This document shows, piece by piece, positions 242 to 50,601 of a DNA stretch of 64,000 nucleotides (position 1 is the first letter of the stretch; the number at the start of each line of letters is the position of its first letter). The DNA is taken from assembly GCA_015061745.1 (NCBI GenBank), contig SUWB01000001.1, positions 1 through 64,000 on the forward strand. The letters are read 5' to 3'. Position numbers and translations under genes: made by a program. This DNA is from Lentisphaerota bacterium (GTDB lineage Bacteria; Verrucomicrobiota; Lentisphaeria; Victivallales; Victivallaceae). Below the pieces are notes generated by a model. That model did not search any database and was not told the origin of the DNA. It worked only from the letters and a program-made list of their open reading frames with translations.

Positions 242-282
242 TTTATCTTCTTCGTAAAAAACAAATAAGAAAGGAAACAGGT

Positions 283-411
283 ATGAAGAAGTTTTTTATG
301 CTGTTGACTGTTGTTTTGGCAGTCGTTGTGTGTTGCTCTGGTTGTGATCCTAAAAAAACTGGTGGTGGAAAACAGCAGTCTTATGATCGCAGCAATGGTC
401 AGTACAAGTAA
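283..411 (+). CDS. 42-aa predicted lipoprotein
   Basis: I place the start at ATG 283 because AAGGAA lies 7 nt upstream and the protein then begins with a clean signal peptide: Met-Lys-Lys, a hydrophobic stretch (FFMLLTVVLAVVV) and a lipobox CSGC with the lipidated Cys at residue 21. The mature part is only about 22 residues, with a Gly-Gly-Gly stretch and the tail SYDRSNGQYK, rich in Tyr, Asp and Gln like the two other small peptides of this operon. It is the first gene of the AT-rich series and is followed 21 nt later by the precursor-like peptide gene. Function is unknown. It could be a lipid-anchored substrate or immunity/anchor factor of the peptide system, or an unrelated small entericidin-like lipoprotein. 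Confidence 0.7.
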   Translation: MKKFFMLLTVVLAVVVCCSGCDPKKTGGGKQQSYDRSNGQYK

Positions 412-432
412 TCTTAAAAAAGGAGTTGAGCT

Positions 433-600
433 ATGATCGTGAAAGATGGAAAAATCCGCAATGACATTATCAAAGGCTTGAAGTTGAAGGTGCAGTTGCC
501 TTCCTCTTCTAACGCAAATAAGCAAAAAATTGCTTATCAATATGCAGGGAAATACGGCCAGGGATACGATGGGTGTGGTTCTCACACTCATGATGATTGA
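433..600 (+). CDS. 55-aa candidate RiPP precursor peptide
   Basis: ATG 433 has a strong ribosome site (AAAAAAGGAG, 10 nt upstream). The 55-aa product has a charged leader-like N-terminal half (MIVKDGKIRNDIIKGLKLKV) and a small, polar, aromatic C-terminal half that includes YQYAGKYGQGYDG and ends CGSHTHDD. That split, the single Cys at residue 48, the four Tyr and the clustered His/Asp are what one expects of a leader plus core substrate. The next gene, 64 nt away across a hairpin, is a radical SAM/SPASM enzyme of the peptide-modifying type. Nothing in the sequence identifies a known precursor family, so the assignment rests on size, composition and position. Confidence 0.65.
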   Translation: MIVKDGKIRNDIIKGLKLKVQLPSSSNANKQKIAYQYAGKYGQGYDGCGSHTHDD

Positions 601-617
601 TAATCAGAATTAATAAA

Positions 618-650
618 CATCCCCCGCAATTTTTTAATCGCAGGGGGATG
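618..650 (+). promoter_or_regulatory. intercistronic hairpin between precursor and radical SAM genes
   Basis: CATCCCCC pairs with GGGGGATG, with an inner GC/GC pair and an AT-rich loop. There is no T-run after it, so it is more likely a read-through attenuator or mRNA-stabilising hairpin than a full terminator. Such a hairpin would allow the peptide to be made in excess over the enzymes. Confidence 0.6.
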
Positions 651-664
651 TGTGGAGCTTGAAA

Positions 665-1996
665 ATGCGAACCCCATGGCTTAGTAATATTTATCAAAAA
701 TCGCCTTCTGTAACGACAATAAAAAAAGTTGTTGATGGACAGGAGTTTTATATCCTTCTGAATCCCGAGTCGGGATCTTGGGTTGTTCTTTCCAAGGATG
801 AACACAAACGATATATCGAAAATAATTTCACAGAAACTGAATGGGAGACTCTTTATGTCCGAGGGTTAGCATTGGATAAAGAGGGTGATGCTGTATCGTT
901 GGAATTTCCCCCACCTGCTGAGTTTCCCAGTGTTGTAGTCGTAAACATTACCACATTCTGCAATCTTCGCTGTTTATATTGTTTTGCCAGTTGTGAAGAG
1001 TTTCATGGCGAAAATATGACAGAAGATGTTATGTCCAGAATAATAGACGAAATGCTAAAAATGCCATCAGAAAGCATTACTTTTGAACTACAAGGAGGAG
1101 AACCCCTTTGCTATATCGATGGCATGGAAAAATTTATTTTACTTGCAGAAGAAAAAAACAAAAAGTATGGTAAGACAATAAAGTATAGAGCAGTTACTAA
1201 TGGGACTCTCATAGATGACAGATTCATTGCCCTTGCAAAAAAATTCCATATAAATTTTGGAGTTAGCATGGATGGTCCTAAAGAATTAACAGACAAGGTT
1301 CGTGTTCATTCAGATGGAACTGGTGCTTTTGATGATATTATTGCTGGAGTTGAACGAGCCAAAAAAGCTGGACTTAATATTGATGGTTCCGTTTGCACCT
1401 TGGGGCAGCACAATTGTGAACATACAGATGAAATAGTTGATTTCTTTGCATCTCATTCAATAAGTTTTAAACCAAGACCAGCAAATATACTTGGGCGCGA
1501 GAAAGAGTCCATGACAACAACAAAACCTGGCCAATGGGCGAAAGCGTATAAGGAATTGTATTACAAAAGCAAGGCGGCAGGAATCACAAATTTTTCAATA
1601 CATATTTTTGAAGAAAACGTTTATACTCCTGTTCGCGATTACATTTGCCTGCGTTATCCCTGTGGTGCTGCCCGAGAAATTATATCCGTTAATCCGGATG
1701 GAACTGTTTATCCCTGCGATGGTTTTAAGGGTGAAGACAAATTTGTAATGGGAAATATCCTGAACGAGTCAATTCCCGATATGCTTAAGAACAACTGGGT
1801 GGCTGAACTAAGAAATAGGACAGCCCAAACGATAAAAGCATGTTCTAAATGCATATATCGAGCGATGTGTTGTTCTTGTTGTTACTCAGCATATGGAGCA
1901 TATGGGACCGTTTACCGCGAGGATCCTCATTGTAGTGATAGACGAAAAATCTTCGATTTCTTATTTGAACAATGGATTCGAGACTTCGTTTTGTAA
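665..1996 (+). CDS. radical SAM/SPASM peptide-modifying enzyme
   Basis: 443-aa radical S-adenosylmethionine enzyme. ATG 665 is chosen over the GTG at 650 because GGAG lies 7 nt upstream. Residues about 1-90 form a small domain with a PqqD/RRE-like look (ILLNPESGSWVVLSKDE), a usual place for leader-peptide binding. The SAM cluster motif is CNLRCLYC: Cys99, Cys103, Cys106. A SPASM domain follows with the complete seven-Cys pattern: Cys333 and Cys351 (ending DGTVYPC), then CX2CX5CX3C at Cys393, 396, 402 and 406, and Cys423. SPASM enzymes carry auxiliary Fe-S clusters and typically make C-C, C-O or thioether crosslinks in peptides. Placement right after a short peptide gene supports that role. 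The bond formed cannot be told from sequence. Confidence 0.9.
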   Translation: MRTPWLSNIYQKSPSVTTIKKVVDGQEFYILLNPESGSWVVLSKDEHKRYIENNFTETEWETLYVRGLALDKEGDAVSLEFPPPAEFPSVVVVNITTFCNLRCLYCFASCEEFHGENMTEDVMSRIIDEMLKMPSESITFELQGGEPLCYIDGMEKFILLAEEKNKKYGKTIKYRAVTNGTLIDDRFIALAKKFHINFGVSMDGPKELTDKVRVHSDGTGAFDDIIAGVERAKKAGLNIDGSVCTLGQHNCEHTDEIVDFFASHSISFKPRPANILGREKESMTTTKPGQWAKAYKELYYKSKAAGITNFSIHIFEENVYTPVRDYICLRYPCGAAREIISVNPDGTVYPCDGFKGEDKFVMGNILNESIPDMLKNNWVAELRNRTAQTIKACSKCIYRAMCCSCCYSAYGAYGTVYREDPHCSDRRKIFDFLFEQWIRDFVL

Positions 1997-1998
1997 AA

Positions 1999-2607
1999 AT
2001 GAGATACTATTCCCATACAGGTATTTTTGTTGGAGATCGCAACAGTGGCAAAACAACAATGCTTTCGAGCATTGTTGCACGGGCGCTTGCTAACGGAAAT
2101 ACACTGTTTGTTTTTGATTCCGCGACGAAACATTGTGACAAATCTTTATTGAAAAAGTGTGAAAAAAATTTGCCTCAATATCGCAAATTTTCGATGTTTC
2201 ATTTTTCTAAAAAAGAACTGTTTAGATTAGAAACTATTGTAAACTCATGCTCAGTAGACATTTTTCTTTTTGATGTTTCGGAACACTTAGAAAAAAGTCA
2301 TACGATTGCAGAATTGCGCAAAAGAACCATAGAGCGCAGCTTGTATAAAAGAAAGGTCAATGAGATATTAAAAGTCCTTCTTCGTACACAGCCACTCGGA
2401 AAGAAAACTATTGTTTTTGATGAAATTGAAATTACCGATGGGATTGCCAAGCAATTAAATGCGCATCTCGCAAATGCTGCTATTTTTTGGGGAGCATTGC
2501 ATCCGCATCGCGTATCTAATGCGGCCCGAAAACACTTTGATTTGTTAATCCCACCGTTTACCCAACATAATATTGAACTAACAAACGAGGTGAAAAATGT
2601 TCAATAA
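1999..2607 (+). CDS. P-loop ATPase of unknown role
   Basis: About 202 aa from ATG 1999, two bases after the radical SAM stop; an upstream in-frame ATG at 1972 would overlap that gene by 25 nt, and neither start has a good ribosome site, so translation is probably coupled. Walker A is GDRNSGKT (residues 12-19) and a Walker B-like segment is TIVFDEIE (Asp141, Glu142). Lys-rich sequence lies between. It looks like a soluble single-domain ATPase of the viral-packaging/IstB-like P-loop type, but I recognise no specific family. Its last 11 nt overlap the HelD-like gene. Confidence 0.6.
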   Translation: MRYYSHTGIFVGDRNSGKTTMLSSIVARALANGNTLFVFDSATKHCDKSLLKKCEKNLPQYRKFSMFHFSKKELFRLETIVNSCSVDIFLFDVSEHLEKSHTIAELRKRTIERSLYKRKVNEILKVLLRTQPLGKKTIVFDEIEITDGIAKQLNAHLANAAIFWGALHPHRVSNAARKHFDLLIPPFTQHNIELTNEVKNVQ

Positions 2608-4645
2608 AACAGAAGATGATGAGAAAAAATATCTTACTTGCGTAAAGGATAGAATATATCTCTGGATAGATTCGCTATCAAAAGAAATTCAACGTTGTAG
2701 TGAACAGATTGCAGAATCCCAAAAGTATTATGTGGACTCGATTCATGAGATTGATAATGCTGAAAAAGCCTCCATTCAGATGTCTATTGATACTTTTTTT
2801 GCCTCTCAAGAACATGCGTTAGAAAGAAAAGCCAAAGCAGAACGTTTGGCACAGTCGCCTTATTTTGGACGTGTTGATTTCTTGCGCGAAGATTCGTCAG
2901 AATGTGAAAACATATACATAGGAATTAGTAATTTTGATTCTGACAATAAGCAATATGTGTTTGACTGGCGAGCTCCGATCTCAAGCTTGTTTTATGATTA
3001 CGAAAAAGGCAAGGCTTCTTTTGTTGCTCCAGGAGGAAAGATTAATGGTAATATTTCCTTAAAGCGTCAATACAGAATTCGCAACGGGGAAATGGAATAT
3101 ATGTTTGACAGCTCGCTTAAAATTAATGATGATATTCTTCAGGAAGCCTTAAGCCATGCATCATCGCAGAAGATGAAAAACATTATAGCGACTATTCAAC
3201 GAGAACAAAATACAATTATTCGCGATGAGTCGCATCGTATAATGTTAATACAAGGAGTTGCCGGCTCCGGCAAGACATCAATCGCACTTCATCGAGTTGC
3301 CTATCTTCTTTATCGTTTTAAAGGAGAGTTAACCGCAAATAATGTTCTCATTCTTTCACCCAATAAGGTTTTTGGAAATTATATCTCTAATGTTTTGCCT
3401 GAGCTGGGTGAGGAAAATATTACTGAAATAGAAATGGAAGAATTAGCCTCAGCTCTTTTGGGTTATAATACCCAATTCCAAACTTTTTATCAACAGGTTG
3501 ATGCGTTGTCTCATACCTCAGATGATGATTATATTGAGGCAATAAAATTTAAATCATCATTAGAATTTGCAAAAAAATTGGATAATTACCTCAAGGATTT
3601 TGATTACAATAACTTTGTCGCGGAAGATATTACAATTCGTAACGAAGCCACAGTTATGGCATCACGCATAGAACACTACTATCGATACACACATGGAGAA
3701 CCCATTGCTGTACGTATTGACCGAATTACCGATGACGTCATAGATGATTTAGAGTGTCAACTTGATTCTGACCTAGGCAGGAAACAAAAAACATTGGTGC
3801 GTCAAATGATTCAAGGTATGTTTCAAGAAACAAAACCTTTTGGTGTATATGTGCGTTTTCTGAAATCCATAGGCAGAGAGGATTTAATACCAGGATCATC
3901 AAAGAACCTTGAGTATGCAGATGTATTTCCCTACATTTATGTGAAAAGTTTTTTTGAAAAAATTGAGTTGCCATATGAGGTCAAGTATTTGATTATTGAT
4001 GAAATGCAGGACTACTCACCAATTCAATATTTGGTATTGGAACGACTCTTTAAATGCAAAATGACAATACTAGGTGATGCGAACCAGGCAGTCAACCCAT
4101 ATTCATCCACTAATTTAGATGCTATTTGTGCAGTTCTCCCGTCCTCGTTTTCAATAGAATTACTCAAAAGCTATCGCTCAACATTTGAAATCATGTCATT
4201 TGCACAAAAAATTATTTACAATCCCAAATTGGAAATGATGGAGCGGCATGGAGATGTCCCTGGTGTCCAGCAATGCGAGAATAACAACCAAATGTTTGAA
4301 AAAATAAAAGGGATTATAGACTCTTTCCAGAACACTGATTTTACATCAATGGGAATCGTTTGCAAAAACCAAGATGAAGCGGATTACGTTTACAAAGAGC
4401 TTGTAAACGCAGGTTCTGGGGTTCGGCTTATAAACTCTGATAGCAAGGAGTTTTCTGATGGTGTAATGGTTGTATCTGCCCATATGTCCAAAGGCTTAGA
4501 GTTTGATCACGTGATTATTCCTGCAGTTGATTCAAAAAATTATTTCAAGGAAATTGACAAATACATGCTTTATGTCGCATGTACTCGTGCAATGCATAAA
4601 CTGGATGTGTTATATGTTGGATCACTGTGTGAATTTCTAGGGTAA
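2597..4645 (+). CDS. helD: HelD-type RNA polymerase recycling ATPase (UvrD-like superfamily 1)
   Basis: 682-aa UvrD/Rep-like protein with the layout of HelD, the factor that frees stalled RNA polymerase. The N-terminal 200 residues contain a charged helical region and the family signatures YFGRVDF and DWRAPIS. Walker A is GVAGSGKT (220-227) and Walker B is LIIDEMQD (465-472). Further helicase motifs are LGDANQAVNPY, SYRST, MSKGLEFDHVIIP and YVACTRA near the C-terminus. ATG 2597 is preceded by GAGGTG and overlaps the upstream gene by 11 nt; the next gene starts 5 nt after the stop. In actinobacteria some HelD relatives (HelR) protect RNA polymerase from rifamycins. Inside a peptide-modification operon this one could be an immunity factor; that is inference. 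Confidence 0.85.
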   Translation: MFNKTEDDEKKYLTCVKDRIYLWIDSLSKEIQRCSEQIAESQKYYVDSIHEIDNAEKASIQMSIDTFFASQEHALERKAKAERLAQSPYFGRVDFLREDSSECENIYIGISNFDSDNKQYVFDWRAPISSLFYDYEKGKASFVAPGGKINGNISLKRQYRIRNGEMEYMFDSSLKINDDILQEALSHASSQKMKNIIATIQREQNTIIRDESHRIMLIQGVAGSGKTSIALHRVAYLLYRFKGELTANNVLILSPNKVFGNYISNVLPELGEENITEIEMEELASALLGYNTQFQTFYQQVDALSHTSDDDYIEAIKFKSSLEFAKKLDNYLKDFDYNNFVAEDITIRNEATVMASRIEHYYRYTHGEPIAVRIDRITDDVIDDLECQLDSDLGRKQKTLVRQMIQGMFQETKPFGVYVRFLKSIGREDLIPGSSKNLEYADVFPYIYVKSFFEKIELPYEVKYLIIDEMQDYSPIQYLVLERLFKCKMTILGDANQAVNPYSSTNLDAICAVLPSSFSIELLKSYRSTFEIMSFAQKIIYNPKLEMMERHGDVPGVQQCENNNQMFEKIKGIIDSFQNTDFTSMGIVCKNQDEADYVYKELVNAGSGVRLINSDSKEFSDGVMVVSAHMSKGLEFDHVIIPAVDSKNYFKEIDKYMLYVACTRAMHKLDVLYVGSLCEFLG

Positions 4646-4650
4646 TAAAC

Positions 4651-5829
4651 ATGGATACTTCCGAATTAAAATCTCTTTTCCCTCTGCTTAATCAGAACAG
4701 TATTCACTATTTTGACTACGCAGCAACAACCCCTATGCCTAGAGAGGTGATTGATGAATGGGTTGATTTTCAGTCATCAATAGGGGTTTTCATAGGTAAA
4801 GGATCTGGAATCTTAACAGAGCGCGCTTCTGAAAAATTATATCAGTGTGAAGAGAATTTACTATCCTTTTTTCAGGCAAATCATGGGGATAAAATTATAT
4901 ATGGCAAAAATGTAACTGAACTTGTCAATATTATGGCATATGCTATTGAAGATTTCATATCTCCCATGGATATAATTTTGGTCGGTCCGTATGAACATAA
5001 CAGCAATTCATTGCCTTGGAAATATCTTGCCAAAAGGTGCGATGCTATTTTTTTTGAAATTCCTATTGATGAAAATGGAATTCCTATTTGGGATTATATA
5101 ACCAAAATCAAAGGGAAAATTAAAATTTTTGCATGTTCCGAAATATCAAATACGAGTGGCAATGAGGCGGATTTATCCAAAATATTTTCATTGTTGCCAC
5201 CAGAAACACTGATATTTATTGATGAATCTCAGGTTGTTGGGCATAGAAGGTTAAAAAAAGAATCACGAGTTGATTGTAAATTTGTGGCATCACACAAAAT
5301 GTACGGTCCTAAAAATATTGCAGCATCAATTGTCAATAACCGATTATTGGAGAAAATGAAGCCTGTTTTGCTCGGCGGAGGAATGATTGATTACAGCGGA
5401 TTTGTAGATACATGGAAGCGAGATAGGGAAAAGTTCTTCGCAGGGACAATGGATATTGGCCTTATCACAGCGTGGAGTAAAGCCTGCGACTTTTTAACAA
5501 GTCTTAGCTTTGATAAAATACATAATATAGAATCGTTACAACATGAGAAACTTTTAACATTTCTAATGGACTCAAAGCATTTTTGTGTTGTTCCAGGAAC
5601 ATCAAAGTCCATTATATCGTTCTATCACCATTCTCTTCATGCTCACGATATTGCGTATGCTTTAGCTCAAAAAAATGTTATTACTAGAGCTGGACATATG
5701 TGTGCGGGAGGAATTTTGAGAAAGCTAGAAAAACACGCAATCACACGAGTTTCATTCGGGCTCGGGTTGATGGATTCCGATACATCTGTTTTATTAGATT
5801 TATTGGGAGATATTGACAATGAATATTAA
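4651..5829 (+). CDS. SufS-like cysteine desulfurase (class V aminotransferase)
   Basis: 392-aa PLP enzyme of the NifS/SufS fold. It opens with the family signature FDYAATTPMP (21-30). It has the PLP-stacking His116 (YEHNSNS), Asp191 and Gln194 (IDESQ), the Schiff-base Lys216 (ASHKMYGPKN), and the SufS-position Cys351 in RAGHMCAGG, which should carry the persulfide. All catalytic residues expected of a working cysteine desulfurase are present. It overlaps by 11 nt the next gene, whose N-terminal domain resembles the SufU/IscU scaffold, so the two probably act as a sulfur donor-acceptor pair. Sulfur could go to the many Fe-S clusters of the radical SAM enzyme or to the peptide product. Confidence 0.85.
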   Translation: MDTSELKSLFPLLNQNSIHYFDYAATTPMPREVIDEWVDFQSSIGVFIGKGSGILTERASEKLYQCEENLLSFFQANHGDKIIYGKNVTELVNIMAYAIEDFISPMDIILVGPYEHNSNSLPWKYLAKRCDAIFFEIPIDENGIPIWDYITKIKGKIKIFACSEISNTSGNEADLSKIFSLLPPETLIFIDESQVVGHRRLKKESRVDCKFVASHKMYGPKNIAASIVNNRLLEKMKPVLLGGGMIDYSGFVDTWKRDREKFFAGTMDIGLITAWSKACDFLTSLSFDKIHNIESLQHEKLLTFLMDSKHFCVVPGTSKSIISFYHHSLHAHDIAYALAQKNVITRAGHMCAGGILRKLEKHAITRVSFGLGLMDSDTSVLLDLLGDIDNEY

Positions 5830-7624
5830 AAACATCTACTCTTCAACAGTACAACGGTTACTGACTGAAAAACAGCAGTTTTTTTTAATTCCTGACGAAT
5901 TTTTAATCCGAGATGGTGTCGCGTGCGGAGATGCTCTTGTAATATTAGGTGAAATTAATGATGATGTCATTAATTTTAAGCTTTTGGTTACAGATGGTTG
6001 CATTATATCCAAAGCGGTTTCAGCATACCTTTTTCAACGCTTCTCTGGCAAGCATATTGAGGAAGTAAAAAAGGCAGTAAATCATCTGCTTTTACAATTA
6101 CAGAAAAATCCCAAGCATATATTTGCATTACTTGACTTAGATGTAATTTATGATAGAATTTCATGTGTGCAAGCCCCTATTGAGCTTTTATCCAATCTTA
6201 TAGATAAATTGCTGAGTCGTGAAATAAACGTAGTTACAATGAAGGACACAAGTCAGGATTTGGATTGTGATGCATGTGTGCGCTCCTCAAGTATAAGTTG
6301 GAGTGAACAAAAATGTTCCATTATCCAACATTCTGAAGAAAAAAAATTCCCGACTGATTACAGAAGAAAATGGCTACAGTTATCTAAATATGAGCTGAAT
6401 ATTGAAGAACGCCAATTATTACACAAGTTAGCTTCCAACATTACTCTAGAGGATATGGAATTCCTGCGTCATGAAAAAATTGCACAGTGTATATTCTCTA
6501 ATTTATTAAAATATGATGGAACGTTTTTTTTGCATACTCCGATATGGAAAATAATACATTATCAAATTCATAGAAAGCATATTGTTCGCCGTGAATTGAA
6601 AAAGATAGCAGAGTTTATAAAAAATATTGATGCAAGCTTTATAAAAGGGATGAACACAAGTTCACTTTATGAAGACGAAGATGCAATACGAATTCATTTG
6701 GATTATGACATCCTATGTTTTTCAGAACATACAGCCTGGGAACTAGGGGGATTTCTCCTGCAGCGTGGTTTTTTGCTGTTTGAAAATGTCTTCTCCTTAA
6801 AAAAAATGACAATGTCTGAAGATAATATATATCAAGGGCATTTTCATATGCAAAAAATATTTGATGATCAATATAAACTTGTCATTGATGTTAATTTCCC
6901 CGGCTTCCCCGTTGGAAGAATTGGTCTGTTTTATCCAGATTATATTGGTTTATTTTTATCTAATGAAGATCAATTCATTATAACACTTTGCCATACATTT
7001 AAGCATAAAAACGTCTTTATGAAAGACTTAAACGATTTGTATTTGATGTTAAAGAAAAGAAAATTAAATTTTGGGCTGTTGGCTACTAAAATCAAGTACT
7101 TACATCTTGAATTCTTTACATCGATTGCGTTGGAATATATTGTTAAAAATTATAAACTTGCACCTAATTTAATTCCTTATCTAAAGACTTTTGTAGAAAA
7201 TCAATATCTCGCTCAGAAGAGGTTTTCTGCATGGCCATACTCTGCGGAAGCAATGTTAGCTGTAAAAAGAGAGGATTTAAAATATCGTGTTGAAATACAG
7301 GACGATTATCCCAGGATCTATCTATTCCCCTTAATACTATTTAAACACACAATGGATGCTTCATCTTTATTTGCGGCTGTATCCAAGACAGGATATCGGA
7401 CCATTTTATTAACATCAACTATTGTCAGCATTACTGTTGATAATGCCAATATTTTTATTAGTGAAATGGGAATTTTTCTGGACAACAAAACACATGACGC
7501 CAACTCTATAAAAAAATCGTCTATTCGTGAGGCATTGAATAGATTACTGCAGATTGGAGTCTTCTCTTGGGACAATGTTATGGAAATTCCAACCGCTCCC
7601 AAAACCGGGAAATGGTTTTTTTAA
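5819..7624 (+). CDS. SufU/IscU-like domain fused to NTP_transf_5-like nucleotidyltransferase
   Basis: 601 aa from ATG 5819 (GGGAGA 8 nt upstream; a TTG at 5813 is less likely). Residues 25-130 resemble SufU/IscU with all ligands kept: Cys36 and Asp38 (ACGD), Cys61 (DGCIISKAVSA) and Cys116 (RISCVQAP). A linker of about 100 residues follows. Residues about 190-450 resemble the uncharacterised nucleotidyltransferase family PF14907: FIKG with Lys276, the metal-binding pair Asp295/Asp297 in LDYDIL, FLLQRGF, and a late helix LCHTFKHKNVFMKDL. The last 110 residues match nothing I know. PF14907 proteins occur in lasso-peptide and other RiPP clusters. A fusion to a sulfur/Fe-S scaffold is unusual. Translation is coupled to the desulfurase gene. 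Confidence 0.75.
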   Translation: MNIKNIYSSTVQRLLTEKQQFFLIPDEFLIRDGVACGDALVILGEINDDVINFKLLVTDGCIISKAVSAYLFQRFSGKHIEEVKKAVNHLLLQLQKNPKHIFALLDLDVIYDRISCVQAPIELLSNLIDKLLSREINVVTMKDTSQDLDCDACVRSSSISWSEQKCSIIQHSEEKKFPTDYRRKWLQLSKYELNIEERQLLHKLASNITLEDMEFLRHEKIAQCIFSNLLKYDGTFFLHTPIWKIIHYQIHRKHIVRRELKKIAEFIKNIDASFIKGMNTSSLYEDEDAIRIHLDYDILCFSEHTAWELGGFLLQRGFLLFENVFSLKKMTMSEDNIYQGHFHMQKIFDDQYKLVIDVNFPGFPVGRIGLFYPDYIGLFLSNEDQFIITLCHTFKHKNVFMKDLNDLYLMLKKRKLNFGLLATKIKYLHLEFFTSIALEYIVKNYKLAPNLIPYLKTFVENQYLAQKRFSAWPYSAEAMLAVKREDLKYRVEIQDDYPRIYLFPLILFKHTMDASSLFAAVSKTGYRTILLTSTIVSITVDNANIFISEMGIFLDNKTHDANSIKKSSIREALNRLLQIGVFSWDNVMEIPTAPKTGKWFF

Positions 7625-7637
7625 GGAGAGAGATAAT

Positions 7638-9650
7638 ATGCTGGTTGCTTTAGAAGGAATGGACGGAGTTGGAAAAAGTACACTTGCAAAAAAATGCGCA
7701 CAGCTACTTGGTGGATTTTTTGTAGTCAAGGCAATTCATCCATTGCGCGACAAAAATGTCTATTATGACAATTTTTACAATATTAGCGATCTTGTTTTAG
7801 AAATTTTCAAGAGTGATTTTGACCAATGCATGTTTGGAATTCGCGGAATATTTTGGTACTACCGACTTAATGGATTTGACATTGTTTCTGATCGTTTTTA
7901 TGCTTCCAATCTTTGGCACATAGAACGCCGCGATGTAGACATTGAAAATATGGTATCATTTATTGGCATTCCAGAAAAAACAGTTCTATTATACGCTTCA
8001 CAAGATGTATTAAAAAAACGCATATGGGCGAGAAACCCTCAAGATAAAGATTTGGTAAAGATAGAGCAATCTGAATATGCATATCGTTTAATGAAGACCC
8101 GCTTCAATAAAAACGGCATTAATTATAGCATTATCAATACAGATGACTTGCCACTAGATTCTGTTGCCGAAAGAATATTATCTACTGCATCCCAAGATGA
8201 ACCCGCTCCGCCTCTTAATGCAACGATGCGTGCTTTTTCCTGCAAAAGAAAAAAAATCACAGAAATATTTATTGACGAAGATATTAATTTTATAGATCCT
8301 AAAGCATTTTTTTATCTTTCAAACCTTCAGTGCATAAAAGTGTCAGATTCAAATAAGTATTTTTCATGCCTTAATGGTGTTTTATATTCCAAAAATCAAG
8401 ATATTTTATATTGTTATCCCAATAATCGTGAAGAAAAAAACTTTACGGTTCCCCGAACGGTAAAGTATCTTATGCCCTCGGCATTCATTAACGCCTCGTG
8501 TCTCGAAAATATTATTCTGCATGATGGAGTCATTGAAATCGGAAGTACTTGTTTTTTTAATTGTCGTATGTTAAAATCTTTTGCAGTTTCAGCAGAATTA
8601 CGGCGAATTGGTCCTATGAATTTTCTAGGTTGTTCAAACATGGAGGCATTTTCTGTGGCATCTGACAATACTGTTTATTCCGAAATCTCAAAAATGCTTT
8701 TTTCTCATGACGGAACAAACTTAATTAAGATTCCATCTGCGATTCCATTTCTAGATTACAAATTCTGTTGCCAAAAAGTATCTGCATGGGCGGGCGCCGA
8801 TGTGTCAACAATAAAAAGAATTGATTTTGATGATAAATTAGAAATTATTGAAGCATATGCTTTTTTTAACTCAAATGTTGAAAAAATAAATATTACATCA
8901 TCCAATCTTACACGTATTGGTGAACGTGCTTTTGGAATGTGTAAAAATTTAAGAAATCTGGACATTTCCTCTGCACCCATTTCAATTTCAATTCATAATG
9001 ATGCTTTTGAAAACGCAAGTGAAAAATTAAGGATTTACATATCAGATATTTTGTTTGAAAAATTGGTCAGAGATCCAAAGAAAGAACATATAAAAAAACA
9101 TTTTGCCGTAAGACTGTTTGATAAAAAACAATTGTCGTGCGGAGCTGCTTGCTGCATTTATCTGAAAAAAAAGCTTGATCTAACAATTTCTATTGAAGAG
9201 GATAAGACATATTGGATTTTTAGTATTGCTCGGCAATTCTTACAATATATACCATGTCTTCTCTATTACTACGATAGCAATTTGATGCGCGATTATTATT
9301 CTCGTAAAATTCCCGATGACTTTTCTGGGACGGCTGATTTAGAAGAAATCATTCAGAGTCAAAAAATATGCTGTAAAAAGCTTGATAAAGATAATTTAAT
9401 ACATGCTATTAGAGATTGTTTTATACTGATGATTGTTGATTCTCAGTTGTTAAACGATGACGCGACGCTCACAGGGGGGCACTATATTATTATTGAGCAT
9501 ATAGAAGGAACGCAAGCAATTATCGTGAACCCCCTAAAATCAGTTGCTATTTTGCACCTCGTAGATGTTGATTTGCTTGTTGAGGGGTGTTTAAAGCAAG
9601 GGGGGTGGTACATGACCATTTCGAGAACGCACAAAGGAGTTTTTTTATGA
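7638..9650 (+). CDS. thymidylate-kinase-like / BspA-type LRR / C39-like protease triple fusion
   Basis: 670 aa from ATG 7638, with AAGGAGAG 7 nt upstream. Residues 1-185 are a thymidylate-kinase-type P-loop domain: Walker A GMDGVGKST (7-15), DRFY (85-88), and a lid-like KKRIWARNPQDKD. Residues about 195-490 form 8-10 irregular BspA/LRR_5-type repeats (for example LTRIGERAFGMCKNLRNLD). From about 498 comes a papain-fold domain like peptidase C39: SCGAACC with Cys501, GGHYIII with His615, and VNP with Asn631, giving a plausible Cys-His-Asn triad. C39 domains cut leader peptides in other RiPP systems, usually fused to ABC transporters; here no transporter is present. The LRR part may recognise the substrate. 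The order kinase-LRR-protease is not one I know. Confidence 0.75.
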   Translation: MLVALEGMDGVGKSTLAKKCAQLLGGFFVVKAIHPLRDKNVYYDNFYNISDLVLEIFKSDFDQCMFGIRGIFWYYRLNGFDIVSDRFYASNLWHIERRDVDIENMVSFIGIPEKTVLLYASQDVLKKRIWARNPQDKDLVKIEQSEYAYRLMKTRFNKNGINYSIINTDDLPLDSVAERILSTASQDEPAPPLNATMRAFSCKRKKITEIFIDEDINFIDPKAFFYLSNLQCIKVSDSNKYFSCLNGVLYSKNQDILYCYPNNREEKNFTVPRTVKYLMPSAFINASCLENIILHDGVIEIGSTCFFNCRMLKSFAVSAELRRIGPMNFLGCSNMEAFSVASDNTVYSEISKMLFSHDGTNLIKIPSAIPFLDYKFCCQKVSAWAGADVSTIKRIDFDDKLEIIEAYAFFNSNVEKINITSSNLTRIGERAFGMCKNLRNLDISSAPISISIHNDAFENASEKLRIYISDILFEKLVRDPKKEHIKKHFAVRLFDKKQLSCGAACCIYLKKKLDLTISIEEDKTYWIFSIARQFLQYIPCLLYYYDSNLMRDYYSRKIPDDFSGTADLEEIIQSQKICCKKLDKDNLIHAIRDCFILMIVDSQLLNDDATLTGGHYIIIEHIEGTQAIIVNPLKSVAILHLVDVDLLVEGCLKQGGWYMTISRTHKGVFL

Positions 9651-9847
9651 TTTATATTTGTATTTTAGGTATTGCCCTAGGTTGTATTTTTTTTATTGCA
9701 TTTATTGCCTATGTTACCTTTTTCAAAACGCCCCCCAAAGGCAACTCCGATGAAATAGATACTTACAATTTTTATCGCAATGACCACCGGGATTGTTGTG
9801 AAAATTTATATACGGATGATGACTATCATCGTGATTATGATGATTAA
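9647..9847 (+). CDS. 66-aa membrane peptide with Asp/Tyr/His tail
   Basis: ATG 9647 overlaps the upstream stop by 4 nt (ATGA) and has AAGGAG 7 nt upstream, inside the end of that gene. Residues 2-26 form one hydrophobic helix with no charged N-terminus. The remaining 40 residues are very polar and end CCENLYTDDDYHRDYDD, with two adjacent Cys. The tail composition resembles the C-terminus of the 55-aa precursor candidate (HTHDD). It may be a second, membrane-anchored substrate, a metal-binding anchor or an immunity peptide. It is the last gene of the series. Confidence 0.65.
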   Translation: MIYICILGIALGCIFFIAFIAYVTFFKTPPKGNSDEIDTYNFYRNDHRDCCENLYTDDDYHRDYDD

Positions 9848-10002
9848 ACCTCAATGAAGGAGAAAACGACAGATAACGTCCGGAAAATTGCGCACATTTT
9901 AGATTGATTATCCCACGTGCTTTAGGCGCAGCCGTAACAAAACGACCGTTTGAGAAGCTCCGGAGGAGCAGGTTGTCTTGTAGGCGGAGCCTGCTACCTC
10001 CA
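9848..10002. other. intergenic stretch with short hairpins after the island operon
   Basis: It contains a compact hairpin GCTCC-GGA-GGAGC at 9957-9969 and a wider one at 9967-9995 (AGCAGG with CCTGCT). The GGA loop is the same as in the hairpin array at 14813-14900. An ATG at 9853 opens only 17 codons with a good AAGGAG inside; I do not support it as a gene. Confidence 0.5.
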
Positions 10003-10356
10003 TTAAATTACACCTTGTTCGTAAATTTTGCAAGTGCAAAGATACTGGCGATTTCCCCATTTTGTTGTGGAAATATGTCTTAATCTTGCTTCAACTAACA
10101 TCATTGCAGAATAGCCATCCGGGAAACTGCCCACCACCCTTTTTCGTCGCCTGTTCTCTTTTATGATTCGTTCCAAACCGTTGTTTGTTCTGATTTTTAC
10201 CCAATGTTCATAGGGAAAACCCATGTAAGAAAGAGTTTCATCTATGCTATCTTCCACGAATTTTGCAACAGAGTCTAATTTCATTTTTCGCAGTTTTTCA
10301 GCAACAAGAACATATAATGGTAACAGTTTTTTAATAGTACTGGTAATGGTCGGCAT
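10003..10356 (-). pseudogene. IS256-type (mutator) transposase, C-terminal remnant
   Basis: The 117-aa frame matches the C-terminal end of IS256-family transposases: ETLSYMGFPYEHW, IRTNNGLERI, RRRKRVVGSFPDG and SAMMLVEARLRHI. A full protein is about 400 aa, so the N-terminal three quarters, including the first two catalytic acidic residues, are missing. The match starts near residue 20 (EKLRKMK); the first residues are probably fused sequence. ERIIKEN replaces the usual ERxxREI, a sign of decay. No inverted repeats are visible. It marks past insertion or rearrangement at the right edge of the AT-rich island. Confidence 0.85.
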
Positions 10357-10457
10357 TATAAAGCGGTAAAACCCGACCTTAACTTTTTAGACCAAAAGTC
10401 CTTTCCAAACAGAGGTTGAATAATTTATAAAAAATGATTATTTTCATTTTTTTTCGG

Positions 10458-10485
10458 TTGTAATTTGCTTTTCGTATGCTATATT
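10458..10485 (+). promoter_or_regulatory. putative promoter upstream of beta-helix gene leader
   Basis: TTGTAA, 16 nt, then TATATT preceded by TGC. The TGC-TATATT form matches other promoters in this window. If used, it gives a 5' leader of about 670 nt before the ATG at 11168. Confidence 0.5.
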
Positions 10486-11041
10486 AGGATATCGTACTAT
10501 GGTGGGCCATTGTCTTTTCTCGTAGTGCGAGGCTATTTGACAACCGCTATATTTCAGCAAAACGCTTCGAAACCGACCAAGTAATGAATGTTTTTGCTCT
10601 TATCGCAGGTGAAATGTATCCGGTGGGATTGTGTCTACACATCTTACCGGACGTTCTCTGGTATGATGTTGCGGGCTCTGGGGCGGGCCTCAGGAGCGTG
10701 CTTGGGAGCGTTCGGTTTTTATTTGAACGTTACCAAGCAAGCTGGATTTCGCAGCAGAAAGTTGTGGAATCGGCGAGCTTACTAAATTTATGGGGATTTT
10801 CGATCATGAGAACTAAACTTGCTACGACAGCATTTAAGATGCCGCTTACGGCATCAGTTCTTTGTTGTCCGCATTACAGAGATCCCGGAGCTTCTTTCAA
10901 GAACGGAAACAACCGGCTTCCGTTGCTTCACAACTTTTGCTCCGTGACAAAAGCAAGCCTTTATTTCAATAAAGGATCGCTTCTATCCGCTTGGTCGGAT
11001 AGAGTTGTTTTTCATCTTTTCAAAACATATTATCGTTGCGG

Positions 11042-11066
11042 AAAACTGTATCGATCCGATTTTACA
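11042..11066 (+). repeat. 25-nt conserved leader site, copy B
   Basis: AAAACTGTATC-G-ATCC-G-ATTTTACA, two substitutions from copy A at 180-204 and in the same orientation. It sits about 100 nt before the beta-helix start codon, as copy A sits about 80 nt before the small lipoprotein start. Confidence 0.7.
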
Positions 11067-11167
11067 ATTTCGCTTTCAGGTAATGGGTCATCACAATTTT
11101 TCCGGTTGTGGCAAAAGATCACCGTCATAGTGTCGATGGTTGCAAATATCAAATGAAAGGAATGTAC

Positions 11168-12487
11168 ATGAAAAAATCCCTTCTGATGGTCGCTGCATTG
11201 CTGGCGATCACAACGTTGTCTGCTAAAGATATCTTTGTTTCTTTGGCAACCGGAAAAAATAAAAACCCCGGAACCAAAGCAGCTCCGTACAAAAATCTCT
11301 GGAAAGCTCTGGCTGTCGCCAAAAATAATGATGTGATCCACATCGCCGAAGGTATTTATCCCGGAAAGATGAAATGCGGTTGGTTCAAACTTGAAAAACC
11401 GGTTTCTCTTTTCGGCGGCTATTCTGCCGACTTCACCAAACGCGACCCGCTGAAGTTCAAAACCTTGTTCCAGCCCCGGAACGAACACAACGATAAGAAA
11501 GCCGGAGCCCAGGGCATACTCCATATCGAATTGGCAAAATCCCCGATGAACGCCCCCAAAGGATTCCATATCGTCATCGACGGGATCATCTTTGACGATG
11601 GTTTTGCTTCCAGCTATCACGCCACCAAGGGAAAACCCGCCGGATTTGATACCGGTATGTGGCTGGAAGGTCCGGCGATGAACAAAGCTGCGGACAAATT
11701 CCCCAGTGCCAACCGTTACAGCATCCACACCGCTTCCGCTTCCCGCGGCGAAGGTGATCTGACTATTCAGAACTGCACCTTTGTCAACGGTTCCAACTAC
11801 GCCGTCAATGTCAACTGGTACAAAGGCAAAGTCGCCATTCTCAACAATGTGTTCTGCAACAACCGTATGCTTTCGGTCAATGTGAACTGCTCCAACGGCA
11901 GAGGCAAGATCGATTGGGAATGTGCCTACAACACCATTCTTTTCACCTGGAGCCGTCTTAATGACCTGGCTGATATGGGTTTTGCCATCCGCAACAACAC
12001 CAACTGCAATGCCAATATCCACAACAACATTATCGGCTTGAACGTGCTGACCGGTTTTGACAACACCAAAGGCAATCCCAAGCAGAAAAAGACCAAACTT
12101 GACAACAATATCTTCTTCCTGAACCGTGAATCTGACGTGCAGATGACAGTTTCTCCTTCCATTGCCAAGGTCAAAGTCGATGGTTTTGAAGATCTCGAAG
12201 GTACTGACGGTATTGAATCCATCGAAGGCAATATCGACCTCAAAGATCCCAGCATTTTCAAAGGCCGCATCAATGCCCAGTATCTCAATGCATTCCTTTC
12301 TATGAAGTATTCCGAAAAGACCAAACTTGATCCGGGCAAATGCAATGCTCTGCGCAGTGTTCTCGGTCTGCCGCTTCAGGGAACCATCACCACCAAATGC
12401 GACATGTATGCCAACCGTTATCCCTGGGGTGAAGCATTGAATCTTTTCGGTGCTGTCAAGGACTACGGTGCTCAGTTGCCGAAATAA
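11168..12487 (+). CDS. secreted parallel beta-helix protein
   Basis: 439 aa from ATG 11168 (AAAGGA 6 nt upstream; an in-frame ATG at 11162 adds only Met-Tyr). Residues 1-18 are a signal peptide (KKSLLMVAALLAITTLSA). The mature start, SLATGKNKNPGTKAAPYKN followed by DVIHIAEGIYPG, is the usual opening of DUF1565-type right-handed beta-helix proteins, common among polysaccharide lyases and surface proteins of PVC bacteria. Asn-rich turns (AIRNNTNCNANIHNN) continue through the middle. I see no catalytic signature that names a substrate. It stands apart from its neighbours and has ordinary GC content, unlike the AT-rich block before it. Confidence 0.8.
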   Translation: MKKSLLMVAALLAITTLSAKDIFVSLATGKNKNPGTKAAPYKNLWKALAVAKNNDVIHIAEGIYPGKMKCGWFKLEKPVSLFGGYSADFTKRDPLKFKTLFQPRNEHNDKKAGAQGILHIELAKSPMNAPKGFHIVIDGIIFDDGFASSYHATKGKPAGFDTGMWLEGPAMNKAADKFPSANRYSIHTASASRGEGDLTIQNCTFVNGSNYAVNVNWYKGKVAILNNVFCNNRMLSVNVNCSNGRGKIDWECAYNTILFTWSRLNDLADMGFAIRNNTNCNANIHNNIIGLNVLTGFDNTKGNPKQKKTKLDNNIFFLNRESDVQMTVSPSIAKVKVDGFEDLEGTDGIESIEGNIDLKDPSIFKGRINAQYLNAFLSMKYSEKTKLDPGKCNALRSVLGLPLQGTITTKCDMYANRYPWGEALNLFGAVKDYGAQLPK

Positions 12488-12521
12488 TGTTATTCACTAT
12501 ATATTAAGGAAATAAAAAATT

Positions 12522-12791
12522 ATGGATATTAAGAAAATTATTGATACTTATCTTAACATTATCAAAACCAAGTATATCTGCTTTGACGGAACCGCCTCTC
12601 AGGAGGAATTCATCTATTTCATTGCAGTCTGGATCGTCGGGGCGATTGCCTGCGGTATTGTCGCAGTAATTCTCAAAATCATCGGTCTCGGTTTCATCGG
12701 TGGAATCGTTTGCGCTGTGTGGAACCTGGCTAATCTGCTGCCGGGACTCGGAACATTGGTTCGTTTCATCAATTCCAAAAAAGCCCGGTAA
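12522..12791 (+). CDS. small DUF805-like membrane protein
   Basis: 89 aa, ATG preceded by AAGGAA. The segment YICFDGTASQEEFIYFIAVW resembles the start of DUF805 (YhaH-type) inner-membrane proteins, in which F-x-G-R-x-x-R-x-E-F precedes the first helix. Two hydrophobic helices follow (about 33-52 and 55-77), then a basic tail NSKKAR. It is shorter than typical DUF805 proteins, with the conserved Arg residues changed to Thr/Gln. Function unknown. Confidence 0.6.
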   Translation: MDIKKIIDTYLNIIKTKYICFDGTASQEEFIYFIAVWIVGAIACGIVAVILKIIGLGFIGGIVCAVWNLANLLPGLGTLVRFINSKKAR

Positions 12792-12793
12792 TC

Positions 12794-12857
12794 AAAAAAA
12801 AAAAAAAAAAAAAAAAACCGAACCGGCAGTAAGCAGGTTTGTTTGCTGCCGGTTCGG
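12794..12857. terminator. A24 homopolymer plus strong hairpin
   Basis: Twenty-four A residues (12794-12817) are followed by CCGAACCGGCAG and its perfect complement CTGCCGGTTCGG with a 16-nt loop (12818-12857). On the minus strand this reads as an ideal terminator, but no minus-strand gene precedes it. On the plus strand there is no T-run after it, so it may act as an mRNA 3' stabiliser between two plus genes. The A-run is a likely slippage site. Confidence 0.7.
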
Positions 12858-12897
12858 CATAAACGATATTTCAACAAATCCGGTAAGGAGGCGTTTT

Positions 12898-14208
12898 ATG
12901 AAACATAAAGTTAAATTTTTATCGATAGCATTGACAGGATGCTTTCTTGCCGGATGTACCTGTTATAACACCCATGTCCCCGGAAGACATATTAATCACG
13001 GAGAAAATCCCAGTGGGATTGACAGATTTTTCTGCAATCTTGATTACATACTTTTCCCGCCACAACAAGGGTATGTAGTAGCACCCGTTCCGGTTGTTGT
13101 GGCTCCACGCCCGGTTGTTGTGGCTCCACGCCCAGTTGTTGTAGCTCCACGCCCAGTTGTTGTAGCTCCACGCCCGGTTGTTGTAGCTCCACCTCCGCCA
13201 CGCCATCACAGCAGACCAGCTCCGTCCTATAGAGGCAGTTCATCTCACAGACCAGCTCCGTCCTATAGAGGCAGTTCATCTCACAGACCAGCTCCGTCCT
13301 ATAGAGGCAGTTCATCTCACAGACCAGCTCCGTCCTATAGAGGCAGTTCATCTCACAAACCTGTTCCTGCGGTAAATAATTATGCCCGTGGAGGTCGCGG
13401 TAACAAACAATCTGCATACAGACCATCTACGTCAAACGTCAACAGACCTTCGGCATATCGCCCGTCGTCTTCAAGCACCAGCAGACCGGCTGGCGGTAAG
13501 ACTGTCACCGGACCGGCAAGCAAACCGGCAGTATCTCGGCCGTCGTCTTCAAGCACAAGAACCCCCTCGGCATACAAACCGTCAGCATCTGATATCTATG
13601 GCAAACCGTCAAGAGGAATCAGTTCTCCATCAGCGGTCCGCCCGTCATCGACAAGCAGCAAACCGGCAGCTTCATCAATAAACAGACCGTCCAGTTCCAA
13701 CAACCGCCCGAAGCCATCGGCAGTATACACGGTGTCGCCCAGCCGATCAAGCGGGTCCTCTGCTTCCAGCAGACCGTCCAGTTCCAACAACCGCCCGAAG
13801 CCATCGGCAGTGTATTCGACCTCGTCAAGTCAGTCAAAAGGCAACACATCTGTGAGCAGACCTGCAGGAAATATTACGGTGAGCCGTCCGCCGACAACAA
13901 CTTCTTCAAGCAGTCTTGGAACCAGACCGTCCACGAGTCGGCCAAGACCGACAACAACTTCTTCAAGCAGTCTTGGAACCAGACCGTCCACGAGTCGGCC
14001 AAGACCGACAACAACTTCTTCAAGCAGTCTTGGAACCAGACCGTCCACGAGTCGGCCAAGACCGGCAACAACTTCCTCAAGCAGTCTTGGAACCAGACCG
14101 TCCACCCACAGACCAACATCGGCAACGACCTCTACTTCCTCAAGCACAACTTCAAGCGGCGGCAGAGGTTCAACCCCGACCGGCAAAAGTCAGTATATGG
14201 AAGATTGA
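12898..14208 (+). CDS. Pro/Ser/Thr-rich repeat lipoprotein
   Basis: 436 aa from ATG 12898 with TAAGGAGG upstream. The signal peptide ends in the lipobox LAGC (Cys at residue 20). A short globular-looking part is followed by several internal repeat families: PVVVAPR five times, RPAPSYRGSSSH four times, two copies of a unit with RPSSSNNRPKPSAVY, and TTTSSSSLGTRPSTSRPRP four times. The rest is Ser/Thr/Pro-rich with almost no hydrophobic core, so it is probably an extended cell-surface or periplasmic spacer, perhaps O-glycosylated. The repeats are nearly identical at DNA level, which implies recent expansion. Long open frames on the other strand are shadows of the repeats. Confidence 0.8.
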   Translation: MKHKVKFLSIALTGCFLAGCTCYNTHVPGRHINHGENPSGIDRFFCNLDYILFPPQQGYVVAPVPVVVAPRPVVVAPRPVVVAPRPVVVAPRPVVVAPPPPRHHSRPAPSYRGSSSHRPAPSYRGSSSHRPAPSYRGSSSHRPAPSYRGSSSHKPVPAVNNYARGGRGNKQSAYRPSTSNVNRPSAYRPSSSSTSRPAGGKTVTGPASKPAVSRPSSSSTRTPSAYKPSASDIYGKPSRGISSPSAVRPSSTSSKPAASSINRPSSSNNRPKPSAVYTVSPSRSSGSSASSRPSSSNNRPKPSAVYSTSSSQSKGNTSVSRPAGNITVSRPPTTTSSSSLGTRPSTSRPRPTTTSSSSLGTRPSTSRPRPTTTSSSSLGTRPSTSRPRPATTSSSSLGTRPSTHRPTSATTSTSSSTTSSGGRGSTPTGKSQYMED

Positions 14209-14231
14209 GCCCCAGTAAGAAAAAAGAAAAC

Positions 14232-14266
14232 ATCCCGTCCTTTTCTCTCTTGATATTCGGACGGAT
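14232..14266 (+). terminator. weak terminator-like hairpin
   Basis: ATCCCGTCC pairs with GGACGGAT with one bulged C, followed by ATTTCTTT. It sits 24 nt after the repeat lipoprotein stop. Confidence 0.4.
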
Positions 14267-14318
14267 ATTTCTTTAGGTATCACATCGGTAACATATCAGG
14301 GGAATCAACAAGGGAAAT

Positions 14319-14504: not shown

Positions 14505-14574
14505 AAATTAAAGAAAAATCTAATATTGTCCAGTAGAAAGAAACTCGAACCGCCGACTTTTGCATCCTTTTTGA

Positions 14575-14744: not shown

Positions 14745-14812
14745 GCTTGGGAGAATTTTCCGAATCAAGCGAAAATGGTCGACCATTTTTTGCCCTGACG
14801 GAAAAAAAAATG

Positions 14813-15027: not shown

Positions 15028-15096
15028 ATGAGAAAATGAAAAATGAGAGTTTATCTATTTGTAATGCAACTCTGTCCGCATTATATTATAACCTCC

Positions 15097-15420: not shown

Positions 15421-15461
15421 ATAACAAAGAATAACAAATAAATAAAATATGGAGAAAAGAT

Positions 15462-50595: not shown

Positions 50596-50601
50596 TTTTC
50601 T

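Follow-up and report, generated by a model that had tools for sequence, protein, structure and literature searches.

The DNA analyzed here, in the following called the window, spans positions 1-64,000 of contig SUWB01000001.1 from a Lentisphaerota bacterium (GCA_015061745.1), whose genome measures 3.1 Mb and is 91.55% complete. Close to the start of the contig lies a run of nine genes, all on the plus strand and all intact open frames (283-9847; Table 1). They encode three small peptides, a radical S-adenosylmethionine (SAM) enzyme with a SPASM domain, a P-loop ATPase, the RNA polymerase-associated ATPase HelD, a cysteine desulfurase, a protein in which a SufU-like sulfur carrier is joined to a nucleotidyltransferase-like domain (the fusion), and a kinase-like protein with leucine-rich repeats (LRR). 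The desulfurase and the fusion are referred to together as the cassette.

The genes are closely packed. The six junctions that follow the radical SAM gene measure +2, –11, +5, –11, +13, and –4 bases, a run of overlapping genes that departs far from chance expectation. At the front of the operon, 21 bases separate the lipoprotein-like gene from the gene for the 55-amino acid peptide, and 64 bases lie between the latter and the radical SAM gene. This second gap holds an RNA hairpin with a folding energy of –20.9 kcal/mol (z –2.87), which was equalled by 2 of 200 shuffles. On the plus strand the hairpin is not followed by a T run, while on the minus strand it has a T-rich tail and is scored as a terminator-like site; it may shield the 3′ end of the peptide mRNA or cause attenuation. 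The tight gene coupling and the hairpin after the peptide gene speak for the pathway proposed below. Sigma-70-like sites were no commoner than in shuffles (46 vs. 39.7, standard deviation 6.9), and no promoter is claimed.

The guanine-cytosine (GC) content is 0.356 in the operon versus 0.468 from position 11,000 onward, and at third codon positions it is 0.27-0.32 in the radical SAM gene and all operon genes behind it versus 0.45-0.58 in four downstream genes; the first two small genes have values of 0.40 and 0.45. The remnant of a Mutator-family transposase sits at the 3′ edge of this low-GC block. Based on the low GC content relative to the downstream region and on the adjoining transposase remnant, the nine-gene block looks imported and was probably acquired horizontally. 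Only its 3′ border is visible in the contig, which starts just upstream with a perfect (AAGC)19 tandem array at positions 1-76, about 200 bases 5′ of the operon. This array is possibly a phase-variable repeat or an assembly stop.

Table 1. Features of the nine-gene operon and its 3′ flank in the window, and loci in other genomes that carry the cassette (positions of the latter refer to the respective locus).
Feature	Position	Strand	Basis
Lipoprotein-like peptide, 42 amino acids, hydrophobic signal, ...CCSGC/DPKK	283..411	+	open frame, AGGA upstream; signal read by eye
Candidate precursor peptide, 55 amino acids, C-terminal end ...KYGQGYDGCGSHTHDD	433..600	+	open frame, AAGGAG ~7 nt 5′ of ATG
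RNA hairpin between peptide gene and radical SAM gene	617..651	+	RNAfold of 596-664
Radical SAM/SPASM enzyme, 443 amino acids, extra N-terminal region	665..1996	+	start best placed at ATG 665
P-loop (AAA_14-like) ATPase, 202 amino acids	1999..2607	+	ATG; AAA_14 27.0 bits, exactly at cut-off 27
Class I-type HelD, a motor for the recycling of RNA polymerase	2597..4645	+	HelD_BACSU NF041464 548.1 bits vs. cut-off 419
SufS-type cysteine desulfurase, 392 amino acids	4651..5829	+	Aminotran_5 215.9 bits, over curated cut-off
Fusion: SufU-like domain (~1-135), C152-DA-C155 linker, NTP_transf_5-like domain (~240-450), C-terminal region	5819..7624	+	ATG
Thymidylate-kinase-like domain, BspA-type LRR_5, possibly C39-like C-terminal domain	7638..9650	+	ATG start
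66-amino acid peptide, one hydrophobic segment, Asp/Tyr/His-rich tail	9647..9847	+	ATG; overlaps preceding stop by 4 bases; segment by eye
Mutator-family transposase remnant (C-terminal part)	10003..10356	-	52.1 bits to PF00872, covering positions 296-371 of its 379
Cassette locus L050, uncultured Clostridia bacterium	809..7050
Cassette locus L051, Anaerotignum lactatifermentans	3803..17160
Cassette locus L052, Dialister succinatiphilus	5542..17148
Cassette locus L053, Bacillus renqingensis	261..9995
Cassette locus L054, Lachnospiraceae SIG304
Cassette locus L055, Synergistales bacterium

The desulfurase and the SufU-nucleotidyltransferase fusion

The desulfurase carries the residues of a SufS-type enzyme, that is, the pyridoxal phosphate lysine K216, the catalytic cysteine C351 and, 19 residues before it, the zinc-swapping histidine H332. 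We determined conservation from alignments of seven desulfurases and seven fusions, taken from the window and the six loci listed in Table 1; K216, H330, H332, D333, and C351 are invariant in all seven desulfurases. In the SufS-SufU complex of Mycobacterium tuberculosis, zinc shifts from SufU Cys40 to SufS His354, which exposes Cys40 to SufS Cys373; His354 precedes Cys373 by 19 residues, the same spacing as between H332 and C351, and SufS of Escherichia coli, with a Tyr at the His354 position, works poorly with the M. tuberculosis SufU (PMC10216065, available part of the source). In a profile search of the PDB, the cysteine desulfurase 8d8s was the best match, with SufS entries next, and the HxHD motif aligns with HPHD of 8d8s. 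The NCBIfam SufS model TIGR01979 gave only 214.4 bits versus a cut-off of 475.1, and three scanned relatives reached 240-295 bits; the cassette desulfurases appear to be a branch separate from that model. A NifS of the host itself is encoded at another place in the genome (L062; 545.5 bits vs. a cut-off of 530.75), which makes the desulfurase of the operon an additional one. The same genome also encodes a divergent NifS-like protein (L065:1465-2541, minus strand; 91 bits vs. the NifS cut-off of 531).

Residues of the fusion are counted from the TTG at 5813, not from the ATG at 5819. Invariant in all seven sequences are C38, D40, C63, C118, C152, C155, W163, K278, G279, R293, D297, and D299. 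Among these, C38, D40, C63, and C118 correspond to the Cys/Asp/Cys/Cys ligand set of SufU, and D297/D299 together with K278 and R293 are presumably, judged from nucleotidyltransferase families in general, a catalytic aspartate pair with basic residues. A profile built from the seven fusions matches SufU-type structures (6a6f, E 3.8e-6) and aligns C118 to the third SufU cysteine. The protein differs from a free-standing SufU in that the carrier is joined to about 470 further residues, and model TIGR01994 gave 25.0 of 92.5 bits. Both halves of the window protein also scored below the Pfam cut-offs, with 19.1 of 22 bits for NifU_N and 24.9 of 31.2 bits for NTP_transf_5 (E 1.8e-5).

The AlphaFold model of the fusion has a pLDDT of 75 and a pTM of 0.75. 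A Foldseek search with this model retrieved IscU 7c8m (TMt 0.77, E 6.3e-4, ~130 columns) and SufU 6a6f (TMt 0.63, E 9.5e-3), and the N-terminal domain is predicted to have the IscU/SufU fold. The nucleotidyltransferase part gave weak matches: the MenT-type entry 8rr5 at probability 0.99 with E 0.09, and MenT3/TglT entries at probabilities of 0.41-0.75. Because of the conservation in seven sequences and the structure model, we hold to the assignment of both halves despite the scores below cut-off. Taken together, the desulfurase and the sulfur carrier are complete in the known catalytic and metal-ligand residues.

A scan with two joined desulfurase motif stretches matched 31 stretches, of which six encode relatives. 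In all six loci the gene directly 3′ of the desulfurase encodes a fusion of about 600 amino acids with both halves. Identity to the window proteins is 37-43% for the desulfurases and 25-35% for the fusions; the window fusion groups with those of L050 (31%) and L053 (35%) and like them lacks a 30-amino acid insertion, whereas the other four loci show 25-28%. A control desulfurase from the host's own phylum (34%; L046) is an ordinary SufS with a separate 147-amino acid SufU-like frame alongside. The desulfurase and the fusion form a conserved adjacent unit that occurs in unrelated bacteria in three gene settings. Five of the six genomes, all but that of L055, were searched as a whole and have one cassette copy each, one of them with an additional 20-bit partial match (L061).

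Elsewhere, this fused unit is rare. The fusion was matched in one of 148 relatives, the window's own genome, and had no match in the plasmid search. A pattern scan for it over 84,980 species genomes gave 50 stretches and another such scan three, none of them encoding relatives, and a profile scan of viral contigs gave 200 stretches with no relative. In four further, larger samples of genomes centred on cassette loci, the cassette was confined to the centre genome (1/398 and 1/299 at E 1e-30, in overlapping sets; 1/135 and 1/100 at E 1e-20). Further members likely exist, since the pattern scan demands exact 8-residue matches.

The gene neighborhoods of the six loci differ. In L050, a MoaA-like radical SAM gene (218.7 of 284 bits) lies directly upstream of the cassette, together with genes for a small kinase, a CYTH protein, and a 328-amino acid protein with a P-loop seen by eye and no family match; this is possibly a pathway to a sulfur-containing, pterin-like compound. 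L053 combines the cassette with a 30-amino acid open reading frame (ORF), a weakly nucleotidyltransferase-like gene, PqqD (43 bits), a Rce1-type protease, an ATP-binding cassette (ABC) exporter, a CYTH protein, and a TauE-type exporter split over two frames, with 72.7 bits for the first piece and the second recognized by eye. With PqqD, the Rce1-type protease, and the ABC exporter, its neighborhood looks like that of a ribosomally synthesized and post-translationally modified peptide (RiPP), and it may be cut, as only 465 bases of contig precede the first large gene. The remaining four loci share one cluster, in which an HldE-like kinase/adenylyltransferase, a dTMP-kinase-like protein, glycosyltransferases, and a variant radical SAM enzyme surround the cassette; L051 and L052 additionally encode a PhnP-like hydrolase as well as a PP-loop protein with weak similarity to LarE, TtuA, and MnmA. 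This cluster looks like a pathway to a sulfur-containing sugar or nucleotide. Ten proteins of L051 and six of L052 were scanned for domains, the typing of L054 and L055 relies on their matching gene order and on homology, and the L055 locus stops at 10.4 kb.

A first-pass annotation of the window, made from its letters alone, had named a sulfur-transfer pair within nine consecutive, closely packed plus-strand genes. The layout is as described there, and the pair is real, complete, and better supported than had been claimed, being adjacent in six of six loci. The SufU-like/NTP_transf_5-like fusion also proposed there is upheld by conservation in seven sequences and by the model, while both of its halves fall short of the Pfam cut-offs. 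The expectation that all nine genes stay together in related genomes failed, as the set was found together nowhere else and the fusion, among 148 relatives, only in the host's own genome. The six loci recovered with the desulfurase all contain the desulfurase-fusion pair and, beyond chance-level matches, no relatives of the peptide, radical SAM enzyme, ATPase, HelD, or C39-like part.

The other genes of the operon

The radical SAM/SPASM enzyme scored above the curated cut-offs for both domains (Radical_SAM 75.4 bits, SPASM 39.9 bits). It reached no NCBIfam cut-off among the best 25 of 81 matching models. The nearest of these, HxsB (TIGR03978), gave 184.8 bits versus a cut-off of 370, and with half of the required score membership in this family is rejected. 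In the plasmid search 609 records matched, with 23-28% identity among the matches listed (best 20 of 609), and 30 of 100 relatives matched including the host itself, at 22-31% identity apart from its own copy. Eleven radical SAM loci from other genomes contained no other gene of the operon within flanks of about 1.5 kb.

For the P-loop ATPase, which like the radical SAM/SPASM enzyme and HelD is confirmed as the first-pass annotation had it, though just at the cut-off, no match was found in the plasmid search. HelD is the sole HelD over cut-off in its genome, where one further place gave 42 bits. Residues 5-391 align to positions 7-409 of the class I profile NF041464 and thus reach the N-terminal arm; in a single-sequence alignment with B. 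subtilis HelD (6wvk, 378.8 bits), the match begins only at residue 39. The clamp-arm region is shortened, with about 55 residues between the aligned parts versus about 115 in B. subtilis HelD.

Regarding the small peptides, the 42-amino acid peptide has a lipoprotein model as its best NCBIfam match, below cut-off (15.8 bits of 33, E 0.0085), whereas neither the 55- nor the 66-amino acid peptide matched any Pfam or NCBIfam family above cut-off. As is typical for RiPP loci, a short gene lies beside a peptide-modifying enzyme: the 55-amino acid ORF, the hairpin, and the radical SAM/SPASM gene follow each other in this order, and we infer that the ORF encodes the precursor peptide. No second locus with this radical SAM gene or the 55-amino acid peptide was found among the plasmid records, the 100 relatives, and the six cassette loci.

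The first-pass annotation had read the large protein downstream of the fusion as a combination of kinase, LRR, and C39 protease. Its LRR_5 part is well established (96.4 bits, over the curated cut-off), and the kinase-like part holds as a fragment: Thymidylate_kin gave 24.8 of 27 bits in the whole protein and passed only when the fragment was scored separately (29.4 of 27). It is a kinase-like P-loop domain rather than a dTMP kinase (TIGR00041, 28.8 of 83.25 bits), and its relationship to the dTMP-kinase-like protein of L052 is distant at best (23% identity, E 0.002). For C39 the match is weak and below cut-off (14.8 bits vs. 22, E 0.026), and the C-terminal fold model is poor (pLDDT 41). A search of the phylum with the whole protein matched 141 of 387 genomes, its own included, and was dominated by LRR_5; all listed matches from other genomes fall within residues 190-474, the LRR part, so that relatives with only the kinase or only the C39-like part could be hidden. 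The repeats of the LRR part are of a type that is widespread in the phylum. A 768-amino acid protein at 15462-17768 of the window consists almost entirely of BspA-type LRR_5 repeats (1013 bits).

Two further gene groups stand out in the window. An exosortase gene (PF09721, 86 bits) lies near the head of a long gene run at 27425-47861, which, with functions assigned by eye, reads as exopolysaccharide synthesis and export. At 49732-54490, electron-transfer-flavoprotein-like genes (by eye), an FAD-linked oxidase, and the lactate racemase gene larA stand in a row and make up a probable lactate-use operon.

Proposed pathway, alternatives, and known systems

We tentatively propose, with a probability of about 0.4, that the block is a horizontally acquired operon for a modified and probably ribosomal peptide, with a portable sulfur-loading cassette at its core. 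The desulfurase would move cysteine sulfur onto C351, a step strongly supported by its sequence and known from ordinary SufS-SufU pairs. Following the same scheme, and with the same sequence support, H332 would exchange a ligand of the SufU zinc and free C38, on which, by analogy, a persulfide would form. This persulfide could be relayed along the linker with its invariant C152-x-x-C155 motif; the nucleotidyltransferase domain that receives it would activate an acceptor as a nucleotidyl or phosphate-linked intermediate before the sulfur is placed. The kinase-like protein may prime the acceptor. The acceptor presumably differs from cluster to cluster; in the window, the 55-amino acid peptide is the only evident candidate and would also be modified by the radical SAM/SPASM enzyme. 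The C-terminal domain of the kinase-LRR protein may then cleave or anchor the peptide, and HelD may shield the RNA polymerase of the producer from the product.

PP-loop thiolases activate their substrate with a nucleotide and then place sulfur, and the logic proposed for the fusion is alike. The settings of the cassette include other enzymes of sulfur, nucleotidyl, or phosphate chemistry, and we favor a sulfur/nucleotidyl role because it occurs with a PP-loop protein, kinases, CYTH proteins, PqqD, a Rce1-type protease, and an ABC exporter. A RiPP pathway comprising all parts is plausible from the gene order, the radical SAM/SPASM class, and the RiPP-like setting of L053. A precedent for the nucleotidyltransferase of the fusion is the nucleotidyltransferase homolog PsmN, which modifies a phosphorylated lasso peptide (PMC9266682), and genes for a kinase and a nucleotidyltransferase are frequent in lasso clusters from the rumen (PMC7533575), as far as the available parts of both sources go.

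Several points weigh against this proposal. Both halves of the fusion stay below the Pfam and NCBIfam cut-offs in the window protein, and the linker, conserved as it is, is modeled with low confidence (pLDDT 54-59 over blocks 141-180), which leaves C152/C155 unplaced and the persulfide relay hypothetical. The C-terminal part of the kinase-LRR protein may be C39-like, on a sub-cut-off match and an unusable fold model, and self-protection is perhaps the role of HelD, by analogy alone. When the window peptide, radical SAM enzyme, ATPase, HelD, and C39-like part were compared with the six loci by tblastn, matches were at chance level, the best values besides the cassette being a 26-amino acid lipoprotein-signal match (E 0.003) and a piece of the radical SAM enzyme (E 0.01). 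With no counterpart of these genes found in the six loci, a single genome ties them to the cassette. Finally, four of the six loci appear to be of a sugar or nucleotide type rather than RiPP clusters.

The strongest rival to the proposed sulfur-loading pathway, itself rather unlikely, is that the desulfurase-SufU pair is a dedicated iron-sulfur (Fe-S) supply for the radical SAM/SPASM enzyme, with the nucleotidyltransferase half doing a separate job. SufU/IscU-type proteins do function in Fe-S assembly, and radical SAM genes accompany the cassette in the window and directly upstream in L050, as well as two genes downstream (the variant type) in L051, L052, and L055, with the same order in L054 by ORF lengths and N-termini. 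However, a NifS-type desulfurase that clears its cut-off is already present in the host, and no radical SAM gene is seen in L053, as far as its possibly truncated contig extends. Such a supply would also leave unexplained why the aspartates and basic residues of the nucleotidyltransferase are conserved in all seven fusions. To our knowledge, most radical SAM clusters work without a private desulfurase. With a similarly low probability, the product could instead be a sulfur-containing small molecule, such as a thio-sugar or thio-nucleotide, and the short peptides accessory or regulatory. The HldE-like and glycosyltransferase genes of four of the six loci, joined in L051 and L052 by the PhnP-like and PP-loop proteins, fit this idea, but such sugar genes are all missing from the window operon, its SPASM-class radical SAM gene directly follows a short peptide gene, and its fusion is closer to those of L050 and L053 than to those of the sugar-type loci.

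A joining of cassette, HelD, and peptide/radical SAM genes by mobile elements, with a promoter but no pathway in common, would agree with the low-GC block next to a transposase remnant and with the full gene set not being found in any other genome; six consecutive junctions that overlap or leave at most 13 bases could hardly result from random joining, and we regard such a composite island as improbable. Least credible is an anti-phage defence island. PADLOC models for viperin matched the radical SAM enzyme (49.9 bits), those for DRT and the GajB helicase HelD (up to 54.2 bits), those for SspA (57.5 bits) and DndA (55.6 bits), both from sulfur-based DNA modification, the desulfurase, PDC-M51B (34.3 bits) and VakA (29.7 bits) the kinase P-loop, and mad8 (17.6 bits) the ATPase. 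These matches are at superfamily level and are far exceeded by the HelD, SPASM, and SufS models on the same proteins, no PADLOC model matched the fusion at E 0.001, and the six proteins scanned include no further Dnd or Ssp component; we therefore rejected this interpretation.

A bolder reading, which we consider doubtful as a whole, is that the fusion with its own desulfurase forms a hitherto unrecognized plug-in thiolation machine, in which one protein both carries the sulfur from cysteine and uses a nucleotide to activate the acceptor, shared among RiPP-like, pterin-like, and sugar-type pathways, here producing a sulfur-bearing radical SAM peptide that hits RNA polymerase, with HelD as self-protection. 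Ordinary annotation would miss the fusion, which lies below the cut-offs of both families in the window although it is conserved together with the desulfurase. Sulfur delivery coupled to nucleotidyl activation would be a new enzyme logic for sulfur in natural products, the fusion could then serve as a search anchor for gene clusters that current tools may not see, and the HelD gene within a peptide operon is a lead toward peptides acting on RNA polymerase.

Among known systems, HelD of the operon resembles class I HelD in scoring over the cut-off and aligning with the B. subtilis protein, and differs in a clamp-arm region shortened by about 60 residues and in lying within a biosynthetic-looking operon. 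The B. subtilis class I protein shields RNA polymerase from rifampicin through its N-terminal arm (PMC12802891), and class I HelD is known mainly from low-GC Gram-positives and Bacteroidia, in short and long variants (PMC8655204; both sources in part). Radical SAM/SPASM maturases of RiPPs, with HxsB as the nearest, share with the operon enzyme the radical SAM core, the SPASM domain, an extra N-terminal region, and an adjacent short peptide gene. In contrast to HxsB, the operon enzyme reaches half the cut-off score, its 55-amino acid peptide has, by eye, no His-Xaa-Ser repeats, and the other eight operon proteins match no Hxs model of NCBIfam.

PsmN of the pseudomycoidin lasso cluster is likewise annotated as a nucleotidyltransferase and encoded beside a kinase in a peptide cluster, and we take it to belong to the same Pfam family as the nucleotidyltransferase of the fusion. 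It differs in being tied to the addition of hexose to a phosphorylated Ser, and no sulfur carrier or desulfurase is described with it in the available part of the source (PMC9266682). The proposed order of nucleotide activation followed by the placing of cysteine-derived sulfur is shared with ThiI, MnmA, TtuA, and LarE. These enzymes combine adenylation with thiolation and use PP-loop domains, whereas in the operon activation would fall to an NTP_transf_5-like domain and the carrier is SufU-like. No description of a SufU-nucleotidyltransferase fusion was found in titles or abstracts of the literature searched, which excluded most subscription papers.

Closest of all are the SufS-SufU pairs of B. 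subtilis and M. tuberculosis, with which the operon pair has in common the PLP lysine, catalytic cysteine, and zinc-swapping histidine of the desulfurase and the Cys/Asp/Cys/Cys set and IscU fold of the carrier. The operon pair departs from them in scoring below the NCBIfam SufS and SufU cut-offs, in being located in biosynthetic clusters, and in having its carrier fused to a nucleotidyltransferase through a conserved CxxC linker. What appears to be new is a SufS-SufU pair whose carrier is fused to a nucleotidyltransferase.

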